Shown: positions 16,389-57,621 of the stretch, piece by piece
Layout of the letters: each line of letters begins with the position of its first letter
Position numbering within the stretch: position 1 is the stretch's first letter
Source: Gemmatirosa kalamazoonensis
GTDB taxonomy: Bacteria > Gemmatimonadota > Gemmatimonadetes > Gemmatimonadales > Gemmatimonadaceae
Direction: 5' to 3'
DNA: 64,000 nt
NCBI RefSeq assembly: GCF_000522985.1
Contig: NZ_CP007128.1
Location: 4,076,220 to 4,140,219 of the forward strand
Notes under the pieces: model-generated
Database searches by the model: none
What the model was told of the DNA's origin: nothing
The model's input: only the letters and a program-made list of their open reading frames with translations
Made by a program: the position numbers and the translations under genes

Positions 16389-16399
16389 CGGACTCCGAC

Positions 16400-16470
16400 G
16401 CTCCGCGCTCCGCTCCACACTCCACGCTCGGGTCGAGTCAGCGTGGAGCGTGGAGCGTGGAGCGTGGAGC
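16400..16470. repeat. palindromic element, unit GCGTGGA, directly after hutU
   Basis: The right arm (16440-16470) is four tandem GCGTGGA heptamers. The left arm (16400-16428) is an inverted, degenerate copy; the inner 17 bases pair with one mismatch across an 11-base loop. The outer edge overlaps the last base of the hutU stop codon. The 17-mer AGCGTGGAGCGTGGAGC at 16440-16456 is also present at 56532-56548 after rpsD. Confidence 0.88.
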
Positions 16471-19776: not shown

Positions 19777-19911
19777 CTCCACGTACGTGGTGTGGTGGGA
19801 CTGAAGGAGGACTGAAGAGGGACTGAAGAAGGAGACACCAACGAGAAGGGTTGGTCCTTCTTCAGTCCTCCTTCAGTCCTTCTTCAGTCCTCCAGAAACA
19901 CGTACGTGGAG
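19777..19911. repeat. long palindromic element, unit GGACTGAAGRAG, after lptD
   Basis: The base is a perfect 13-bp inverted repeat (CTCCACGTACGTG at 19777-19789, CACGTACGTGGAG at 19899-19911). Inside, 36-base arms each hold three near-tandem copies of a 12-base unit GGACTGAAGRAG and match at 33 of 36 positions. The total is about 135 bases in the 219-base gap between lptD and hutH. Its outer edge is 16 bases after the lptD stop. It lies upstream of hutH, so it could end lptD transcription or affect hutH expression. Confidence 0.92.
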
Positions 19912-55349: not shown

Positions 55350-56426
55350 TTACTCCTCGTCGTCGTCTTCTGGCGCGTTCGCGGCGGCGCGGCTCGGTGC
55401 GGTGCCCCAATCGGTGATCCGCACTCCGCCGTCGCCCGCTTCCTCGTAGCGCATGCCAAAGTTCAGCCCCTCGCGCTCGAGGAGATCGGCGATCTCCTGG
55501 AGGGACTTCTTGCCGAAGTTCTTGACCTGCAGGATCTGGTTCTCCGTCTGACGCACCAGATCGCCGAGCGTGCGGATGTTCGAGTTCTTGAGCGAGTTGA
55601 CGCTGCGCACCGAGAGCTCGAGATCGTCGATCGACGTGCGGAGCAGGTCACCCATCCGCAGCGCGTCGGCGCCGTTGCCGTCGCCGCCCGCCGCCACGCT
55701 GGCCGCGGCGTGCGAGCCGAAGCCGGCGAAGTACTGGAAGTGCGTCTGCGCGAGCGCCGCGGCGTAGCTCACCGCCTCTTCCGGCGTGATCGTGCCGTTC
55801 GTCTCCACGGTCAGCGTGAGCCGATCGTAGTCCGTGCGCTGCCCGACGCGCGTCTCGGCCACCGCGAAGTTCGCGCGGCGCACCGGGTTGTAGATCGAGT
55901 CCACGCGGACGAGATCGACCGGCAGGCCGCGATCGACCGGATGCTGGTCGCTCTCGACGTAGCCGCGCCCCTTGTTCACGTAGAGCTCGATGTTGAGCTC
56001 GCGGTCCTCCTGGAGCGTGAGGAGGTGGTGCGCGGCGTCGACGATGCGCACGCCGCTGGCGCCCTGGATGTCGCCGGCGGTGATCGGACCCGCCTCGGTC
56101 TTCTGGATGCGCAGCACCGCCGTCTCGACGTCGTCGTCGAGCGTCAGCGTGAGCGTCTTCAGATTGCCGATGATCTGGTGCACGTCCTCCACGACGCCCG
56201 GAATCGTCTGGTGCTCGTGGACGACGCCGTCGATGCGGAAGCCCCACACCGCCGCGCCGCGGAGCGACGACAGCAGCAGGCGGCGCATGGAGTTGCCGAG
56301 CGTGTGCCCGAAGCCGCGCTCGAGCGGCTGCAGGCGGAACTCGGCGACGTTCAGGTTGTCCTCGCGCTTCGTCGCTTCGACGAGCTGCGGCCGGACGAGC
56401 CCGCGGAGATCGATCGTGGTAGCCAT
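55350..56426 (-). CDS. rpoA: DNA-directed RNA polymerase subunit alpha
   Basis: Alpha subunit that nucleates RNA polymerase assembly. The 358 residues have an N-terminal dimerisation/assembly domain (FRLQPLERGFGHTLGNSMRR near 46-65). A C-terminal helix-hairpin-helix domain (about 270-330, ELSVRSVNSLKNSNIRTLGD) contacts UP elements and activators. The tail is acidic. It is longer than E. coli alpha (329) by about 30 residues, mostly in the linker and C-terminal tail. The gap to rpsD (56427-56605) holds a palindrome, unusual inside this operon. Confidence 0.97.
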   Translation of the reverse strand: MATTIDLRGLVRPQLVEATKREDNLNVAEFRLQPLERGFGHTLGNSMRRLLLSSLRGAAVWGFRIDGVVHEHQTIPGVVEDVHQIIGNLKTLTLTLDDDVETAVLRIQKTEAGPITAGDIQGASGVRIVDAAHHLLTLQEDRELNIELYVNKGRGYVESDQHPVDRGLPVDLVRVDSIYNPVRRANFAVAETRVGQRTDYDRLTLTVETNGTITPEEAVSYAAALAQTHFQYFAGFGSHAAASVAAGGDGNGADALRMGDLLRTSIDDLELSVRSVNSLKNSNIRTLGDLVRQTENQILQVKNFGKKSLQEIADLLEREGLNFGMRYEEAGDGGVRITDWGTAPSRAAANAPEDDDEE

Positions 56427-56531
56427 TGCGTTAGTCAGTCCTCATTGGTCACGCCCTTTCGGGCGACGCCCTGCCCCGCCCTTCACGCGCGGCAGGCCCG
56501 TACGGGAGTGAAGGTCCCGACCCGTATCCCC

Positions 56532-56598
56532 AGCGTGGAGCGTGGAGCGTTGAGCGCCGAGTGAGTTCCTCAACGCTCTCCGCTCCACGCTCCACGCT
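56532..56598. repeat. palindromic element between rpsD and rpoA, unit GCGTGGA
   Basis: A perfect 17-base inverted repeat AGCGTGGAGCGTGGAGC (56532-56548) / GCTCCACGCTCCACGCT (56582-56598) surrounds an imperfect inner GTTGAG/CTCAAC pair. The outer edge is seven bases past the rpsD stop. The 17-mer is the same sequence found after hutU (16440-16456). The rest of the 179-base gap contains a small CGCCC/GGGCG hairpin near 56450-56467. Confidence 0.92.
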
Positions 56599-56605
56599 CG
56601 GCTTG

Positions 56606-57241
56606 TTACTTCGAGTAGAGCTCGACGACCAGCTGCTCCTGCGCGGCGATCGGGATGCTCGGCCGCTGCGGGCGCTCGAGCATGCGGCCGGAGAACGACT
56701 CCTTGTCGACCGCGATCCAGGCGAGCGGCGCGCCGCGGGCCGACTGATCCATCGCGGCCTGCACGGCGACCATCTCGCGCGACTTCATGCGGACGCGGAG
56801 CTCCTCGCCCGGCTTCACCTGGTAGCTCGGGACGTCGACCGTCTTGCCCTTCACCTCGACGTGGCGATGGCGGATGAGCTGACGCGCGGCCTTGCGGCTG
56901 GCGGCGAAGCCCATGCGGTACACCATGTTGTCGAGGCGGCTCTCGAGCGCGGCCAGCAGGTTGTGGCCCGTGATGCCGGGCAGCGTGCTGACCTTCTCGA
57001 ACGTGTTGCGGAACTGCCGCTCGCTGACGCCGTAGATGCGCTTGATCTTCTGCTTCTCGCGCAGCTGCTTGGCGTACTCGCTCGTCTTACGACGGCGCGC
57101 GGTGTTCTGGCCGTGCTGACCCGGCGCGTACGGACGACGCTCGACGGGGCACTTCTCCGTGAAGCACTTGGTGCCCTTGAGAAACAGCTTGGTCCCCTCG
57201 CGGCGGCACTGGCGGCAGCTCGGACCCGTGTAGCGAGCCAT
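56606..57241 (-). CDS. rpsD: 30S ribosomal protein uS4
   Basis: Primary 16S rRNA binder. The 211 residues start MARYTGPSCRQCRREGTKLF with a four-Cys cluster (CRQC then CFTEKC), indicating the zinc-bearing C+ form. The S4 RNA-binding domain follows (LDNMVYRMGFAASRKAARQL, RHRHVEVKGKTVDVPSYQVK). The ATG at 57241 is two bases after the rpsK stop. In E. coli S4 is the translational repressor of this operon; the palindrome immediately downstream makes its mRNA context unusual here. Confidence 0.97.
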   Translation of the reverse strand: MARYTGPSCRQCRREGTKLFLKGTKCFTEKCPVERRPYAPGQHGQNTARRRKTSEYAKQLREKQKIKRIYGVSERQFRNTFEKVSTLPGITGHNLLAALESRLDNMVYRMGFAASRKAARQLIRHRHVEVKGKTVDVPSYQVKPGEELRVRMKSREMVAVQAAMDQSARGAPLAWIAVDKESFSGRMLERPQRPSIPIAAQEQLVVELYSK

Positions 57242-57243
57242 CG

Positions 57244-57621
57244 TCAGACCCTCCGCCGCTTCGGCGGCCGGCAACCATTGTGCGGGATCGGCGTCACGTC
57301 CTTGATCGACTTCACGGTGAGACCGGCGGCGGCGAGCGCCTGGATCGCGCTCTCACGACCCGAGCCGGGACCCTGCACGCGCACGTGCACGCGGCGCACG
57401 CCGAGCGTCATGGCCTCCTTGGCGCACTGCTCGGAGGCGACCGTCGCAGCGAAGGGCGTGGACTTCTTGGAGCCCTTGAACCCCGCCTTGCCGGCCGAAC
57501 CCCACGACAGCGCGTTCCCGCGGCTGTCGGTGATGGTGATCGTCGTGTTGTTGAACGTCGCGCTGATGTGCGCGACGCCCTCCGCCTCGACGATCTTCTT
57601 GGTCTTCTTCGCAGTAGCCAT
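57244..57621 (-). CDS. rpsK: 30S ribosomal protein uS11
   Basis: Small-subunit platform protein. The 125 residues include [40 protein letters not shown] and the conserved C-terminal [14 protein letters not shown]. One base separates its ATG from the rpsM stop. Confidence 0.97.

Follow-up and report, generated by a model that had tools for sequence, protein, structure and literature searches.

Many bacteria contain an excess of seven-base repeats, whose spread and function are described as still unexplained (PMC4692102). According to the available parts of that study, the heptamers of Xanthomonas (GGGAATC) and Nostoc (GGGGA(C/T)T) usually form arrays of four units, about 90% of them intergenic and near the end of the upstream gene; inverted pairs number 70 in Xcc and 75 in Xac, none of the repeats is reported from a plasmid, and sister species share junctions at which length and sequence are altered (PMC4692102). 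Seven-nucleotide motifs of class I or class II also build the P6b stem of the Nostoc trnL intron (PMC4476775). A large survey of inverted repeats covers no Gemmatimonadota in the part of its text that is available (PMC13155455), and our literature search, with subscription papers and preprints outside its scope, found no report of a family of heptad hairpins in this phylum or of a turnover of repeat words across genera at one junction. Here, we describe such hairpins, for which the closest known kind is that of the Xanthomonas and Nostoc repeats.

The locus from which we started lies in a 64,000-nt stretch of the genome of the soil bacterium Gemmatirosa kalamazoonensis (the window), where the minus strand carries rpsM, rpsK, rpsD, rpoA, and rplQ in the usual order (names from their sequences and the preliminary description). 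The preliminary description had placed a perfect 17-bp inverted repeat between rpsD (encoding S4; 56606-57241) and rpoA (55350-56426), and both flanking genes are indeed found on the minus strand around a gap of 179 nt (56427-56605). The inverted repeat is real, since a search of the window finds the 17-mer AGCGTGGAGCGTGGAGC exact on both strands and both arms, at 56532-56548 (plus) and 56582-56598 (minus). With up to 3 mismatches, AGCGTGGAGCGTGGAGC has 9 matches in the window versus 1.0 expected and a maximum of 3 in 100 shuffles, and GAGCGTGGAGCG occurs 5 times versus 0.05 expected. The full hairpin (56529-56601, minus strand) has 30 bp, presents its purine arm first, is made of GAGCGTG-type units, and starts 4 nt past the rpsD stop codon (56606-56608), which stands directly before it. 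On the mRNA strand, its 5' arm (56569-56601) reads GAGCGTG twice, then GAGCGGA, GAGCGTT, and GAG, while in the 3' arm (56529-56561) the unit AACGCTC matches the variant GAGCGTT. The arms are 33 nt each with 85% complementarity; folded as RNA, they form 30 pairs inward from 56601/56529, with an energy of -65.8 kcal/mol and a z-score of -11.6 relative to dinucleotide shuffles. Tandem Repeats Finder detects period 7 in both arms as well as at a second site, 16440-16470. The same program lists 11-nt tandem repeats in inverted order at 19798-19893 (GGACTGAAGAA / GTCCTCCTTCA), perhaps another hairpin with repeated arms but of period 11. Much of the gap remaining downstream of the palindrome is occupied by an intact leader RNA that is described below.

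The second site belongs to another heptad hairpin of the minus strand (16399-16470), located between two minus-strand genes. The recurrence of the 17-mer about 40 kb away that the preliminary description had reported thus holds as to the place, with the qualification that the arm order there is reversed, pyrimidine arm first. That the repeat is a family and not a local accident is borne out by the whole genome: the three tandem units of GAGCGTNGAGCGTNGAGCG have 240 matches (134 forward and 106 reverse), and the reversed-pattern control has 0. Patterns for whole hairpins, searched on one strand and with several matches per hairpin, gave 70 purine-first and 60 pyrimidine-first matches and 0 in the pattern controls. 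A 26-mer of four units is found 81 times in contig C2, 4 times each in C3 and C4, and not in C1, so the heptad repeats are mostly chromosomal.

Among the matches listed, 57 stretches of this genome contain 73 clusters of units, 62 of them paired into hairpins (27 purine-first and 35 pyrimidine-first), a share that is biased because the hairpins were collected around strict pattern matches. In both arms the commonest number of units is four. GAGCGTG accounts for 282 of 354 units, and GAGCGGG, the sole variant bearing GGG, for 20 of 354. At G000:C2:4594743 and C2:5146486, GAGCGTG is repeated in tandem about 13 times or more, versus the usual four. By a home-made ORF caller with a simple codon model, for which gene starts are rough, 45 of the 62 hairpins are intergenic. 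The remaining 17 were called inside genes, with their strand context assigned by hand, but the coding frame shifts across most of them. Of the 45 distances measured to a stop codon, 38 do not exceed 32 nt, and short intergenic spaces are filled by the elements. Codirectional genes flank 35 of the 45 intergenic hairpins, a share similar to that of the background (102 of 135 junctions of at least 60 bp).

To follow the junction through relatives, rpsD was located in 80 named loci (Gemmatimonadaceae and Gemmatimonadota records) and, across the order, in 148 of 151 genomes. The rpsD-rpoA gap was obtained from 87 of 110 loci and is represented by 77 gaps, distinct by sequence and not by species; the other 23 loci gave no gap because of a contig end or an unrecognized rpsD or rpoA signature. 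The preliminary description had opposed an insertion to a conserved operon feature, and the palindrome is indeed not fixed: the exact 17-mer occurs in 1 of the 77 gaps, on which ground we rejected a fixed operon palindrome, and in 20 of 77 the stretch before the leader is nearly empty (at most 24 nt). The lone insertion did not hold up either, as the comparison revealed a third case in which 29 of 77 gaps contain a stem of at least 18 bp, mostly built from other heptamers. Among these 29 long hairpins, the best lag is 7 in 25 (shuffled arms: mean 3.3, maximum 9) and 27 start 0-16 nt past the rpsD stop codon; 4 lack the 7-nt period, and the gaps of many species contain either an ordinary hairpin or nothing. 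The words in the gap include GAGCGTG (2 of 77, in this genome and that of Roseisolibacter sp. H3M3-2), TTGGCTA (2), GACGG types (4), GAGT..T types (4), and others. Outside the 77, locus L078 has a heptad hairpin of GGGAAAC type, and L062 and L072 have long hairpins of another make. Both a conserved operon palindrome and a lone insertion are therefore set aside: the palindrome belongs, as a single site, to a family of heptad hairpins that is dispersed and fast-rewritten. One Gemmatimonadaceae-like rpsD region (L154, CALQGY020000048.1) came from a record titled Candidatus Kuenenia stuttgartiensis, which is probably a misbinned or mislabeled contig.

Even close relatives differ at this junction. 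In genus g22 the gap hairpin is present in genome G118 and absent in G114, and in genus g14 it is present in G040 and G076 and absent in G086. Within a clade of 8 species, the hairpin stretch has a mean identity of 64% (55-77%) versus 90% (87-97%) for the adjoining leader and 48% for the shuffled stretch. A scan of 1.24 Mb (the window and the 80 named loci) found 30 hairpins with stems of at least 18 bp, 14 of them with best lag 7, and its block-shuffled control found 0. At 4 loci (L105, L111, L122, and L136), a second hairpin elsewhere is spelled like the gap hairpin, with the identical word or one closely similar to it.

Period 7, a high copy number, and genus-specific words characterize the family. 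Triples of GAGCG number 240 in the own genome, 157 in G118, and 52 in G114, with 1-2 in 4 more genomes and at most 2 in each of the remaining 148 of the 151 genomes of the order. Triples of TTGGC are similarly concentrated in one genus (G040, 223; G076, 214; G086, 78), with 1-4 in 6 others and at most 4 in each of the remaining 71 of 74 genomes. GACGG triples are broader and occur in 27 of 74 genomes (G058, 215; G070, 175; G032, 161; G038, 101; G158, 98; G052, 93), and GAGT..T triples were counted in 26 chosen genomes, not the whole family (G001, 48; G060, 16; G036, 11; G054 and G098, 3 each). The word at the rpsD-rpoA site and the abundant word of the genome agree often but not always. In G001 the abundant GAGT..T word fits that of the gap, yet G130 and G054 have GAGT-type gap hairpins with only 0 and 3 exact GAGT triples, respectively, and G058 has a gap unit of GAGACGT type while GACGG is its abundant unit.

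At orthologous sites, hairpins of the family are gained or lost and their unit number changes, and pairing is preserved even where loops are exchanged. At one such site in the three g14 congeners, the hairpins of G040 and G086 share their arms and have unrelated loops, whereas G076 retains the 3' arm only, its 5' arm being absent along with some flank. At another, the outer arms are the same in all three genomes and the loops differ; one G040 arm has about 14 units and G076 has a doubled hairpin. Overall, unit number at orthologous sites ranges from 4 to about 14 among the three congeners. Kept arms with unrelated loops, as at locus L224 and its orthologues L263 and L264 in three congeners, look as if the loops had been exchanged. 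One G040 element recurs at many other places in all three g14 genomes, where 85-95 nt align with 73-82% identity, indicating that certain copies derive from others. Most loops are unrelated by descent, since pairs with at least 70% identity number 14 of 300, 29 of 528, and 2 of 171 (0.8, 1.0, and 0 in shuffles), and whole-element copying is thus demonstrated for a minority only.

The two arm orders differ in their relation to ribosome-binding sites. In gene orientation, a Shine-Dalgarno-like motif adjoins the hairpin at 28 of 38 pyrimidine-first sides versus 3 of 23 purine-first ones, a contrast to which the purine arm contributes in part by its own sequence, since GTGGAG is similar to GGAGG. 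The motif is followed by a start codon at 18 of 38 versus 0 of 23 sides, and the 5' edge has a complementary CTCYR at 20 of 38 versus 0 of 23. Many pyrimidine-first elements finish with ...GAGCG TGGAGG and then a start codon, so their last heptad is often the ribosome site itself and their first bases can pair with it. Loci L046, L191, L199, and L202 of the own genome, for example, have TGGAGG and the start codon at the end and the complement of TGGAGG at the beginning. Pyrimidine-first hairpins could thus mask a downstream gene's ribosome site, while purine-first ones would not. Distances to start and stop codons are alike between the arm orders (Mann-Whitney p 0.36 and 0.97). Masking of this kind is inapplicable to the rpsD-rpoA palindrome, which is purine-first and 111 nt away from rpoA.

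How such a hairpin came to lie between two essential pieces of the expression machinery can be read in several ways. Chance pairing in a GC-rich genome has next to no probability and was rejected in view of the fold z-score of -11.6, the block shuffles (0 versus 30 hairpins with stems of at least 18 bp in 1.24 Mb), and the pattern controls of 0. A terminator or attenuator that reduces rpoA relative to rpsD would suit a very stable hairpin immediately past a stop codon, and in the own set the convergent versus divergent ends are 4/0 for purine-first and 1/4 for pyrimidine-first hairpins (Fisher p 0.048). However, there is no terminator-like site with a T-run in 56300-57300, none of the 31 sides examined downstream of purine-first hairpins has an 8-nt window with more than 4 T, most copies are flanked by codirectional genes about as often as in the background, and 3 of the 20 paired TTGGC hairpins in sister genus g14 separate divergent genes. 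Nor does rpoA have a separate promoter match, as a scan of 56300-57300 found no sigma-70-like promoter in the rpsD-rpoA gap. Since no U-tract follows the hairpin, an intrinsic terminator was rejected, and we regard termination or attenuation in general as unlikely.

An even smaller probability is given to a REP/BIME-type element mobilized by a RAYT (Y1 tyrosine) transposase, despite the short palindrome, the many intergenic copies near 3' ends, and some copies of whole elements. A search for PF01797, which covers Y1 transposases only, had matches in 16 of 74 family genomes but 0 in the complete own genome, and the domain is also absent from the heptad-rich genomes G040, G076, G086, G058, G118, G038, and G052. 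GTAG is present at 11 of 124 ends versus about 4 expected, mostly in the CTA variant of the unit; the CGTC tag is not above chance; and arms of period 7 are not among the REP traits in the available part of PMC3733652. RAYT-driven REP was therefore rejected for want of a RAYT in the genome and of a regular GTAG/CGTC end. Somewhat better placed than a terminator, although still improbable, is an ordinary hairpin shaped by local replication slippage and quasi-palindrome correction alone, with neither dispersal nor genome-wide homogenization. In its favor, bacteria commonly have seven-base units, for which an origin by slippage has been suggested (Mrazek 2007, as cited in PMC4679880; PMC4692102), and unit number does differ at orthologous sites. 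Slippage alone leaves unexplained, however, why a word that occupies hundreds of sites in a given genus is all but missing from the next, and why elements at different sites match over 85-95 nt with 73-82% identity.

As the probable explanation, we favor a dispersed set of Gemmatimonadaceae intergenic hairpins that includes the palindrome and whose arms are tandem copies of a genus-specific seven-base word. Copies would arise and move between sites, and their arms would lengthen or shorten by slippage in steps of 7 nt. Recombination or template switching, both from arm to arm and from copy to copy, would keep the arms complementary, and the same process would spread one word through a genome. 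We infer that dispersal, unit slippage, and arm-arm exchange all act. At the rpsD-rpoA junction, the hairpin immediately follows the rpsD stop codon in the mRNA, and its likeliest effect is a mild one: as a stable 3' structure bordering rpsD, it would hinder exonucleases or reinitiation without terminating transcription. The downstream gene rpoA is essential, and little polarity would therefore be expected at the hairpin. Control of rpoA expression would fall to the conserved kissing-loop leader that comes next. A bolder alternative, which we hold to be possible but doubtful, is that an enzyme or biased recombination rewrites all sites of a genus to one word while position, stem length, and pairing are kept, as in satellite DNA under concerted evolution, and that the subset of hairpins with a Shine-Dalgarno sequence in the last heptad masks many ribosome sites.

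The leader RNA is not part of the heptad family. It extends over 56465-56523 on the minus strand and consists of two hairpins, one at 56503-56519 (loop 56508-56514) and one at 56466-56501 (loop 56480-56486), whose 7-nt loops are complementary to each other and are predicted to kiss. We aligned 71 of 75 references (L128, L115, L102, and L100 were omitted, and the window row took the place of L061), and the 18 proposed pairs form in 93.4% of the cells of this alignment versus 76.6% when shuffled and at most 56% when slid by 1-3 columns; changes on both sides are seen at 15 of the 18 pairs. In a second alignment of 44 of these 71 rows (41 distinct), 23 pairs form in 98.4%. Covariation across the leader is strong, and the loop-loop helix is 98% paired, with 6 of its 7 pairs changed on both sides. 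Conservation of GCG[AG]GG in these alignments is partly by construction because the regular expression that cut the gaps includes a portion of the leader motif. With strict filters, a model of the two-hairpin leader matches 101 of 298 genomes of the phylum, that is, 101 of 103 in the own family and 0 of 195 others, and all 30 loci checked have the match between rpsD and rpoA.

Rfam returned no match for the leader RNA, Alpha_RBS included; microRNA names that appeared in this search were rejected as the usual response of such models to long hairpins, far below gathering scores. Like the S4 leaders (Rfam Alpha_RBS; PMC7247131), it is a structured RNA inside the alpha operon. In the available part of the survey PMC7247131, however, S4 leaders precede rpsM or rpsD and come from other phyla only, whereas the RNA described here follows rpsD, precedes rpoA, has a kissing-loop topology, and lacks an Rfam match. 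A literature search with subscription papers and preprints outside its scope found nothing on a kissing-loop leader of rpoA in Gemmatimonadetes. We think that it is a new, apparently undescribed leader RNA of rpoA-rplQ, and it could govern rpoA.

Set against the published accounts, as far as these are available, the heptad hairpins share with the repeats of Xanthomonas and Nostoc a seven-base tandem unit in many dispersed copies, the usual number of four units, an intergenic location near the end of the upstream gene, and inverted pairs (PMC4692102). They differ in their long complementary arms, in the change of word from genus to genus at one orthologous site, and in the association of one arm order with Shine-Dalgarno sequences. 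The G-quadruplex potential of GGG runs, a trait of those two published words rather than of heptameric repeats at large, is not found here. The P6b stem of trnL resembles the heptad hairpins in its complementary seven-base repeats, in the gain and loss of units on both sides, and in class switches that leave the structure intact, but is a single intron locus, whereas the heptad hairpins are dispersed between genes (PMC4476775). With REP, BIME, REPIN, and TIR elements (PMC3733652), they have in common many short palindromes downstream of genes, between codirectional or convergent genes, and in species-specific families; unlike those, they have no GTAG/CGTC tag, no RAYT, and arms made of a variable number of tandem heptads. 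The TAACTGA repeats of marine Beggiatoaceae are likewise abundant intergenic heptamers, but as described in PMC4679880, these are direct repeats upstream of start codons with one inverted case only.

The leader RNA is the more surprising by-product compared to the palindrome itself, and it may be a new family-wide regulator of the alpha subunit of RNA polymerase or of ribosomal protein L17. For the heptad hairpins, the rpsD-rpoA junction is a fixed orthologous site that can be compared across dozens of species, each with nothing, a plain hairpin, or a heptad hairpin in its own word, so that slippage, dispersal, and homogenization become separable at a single locus.
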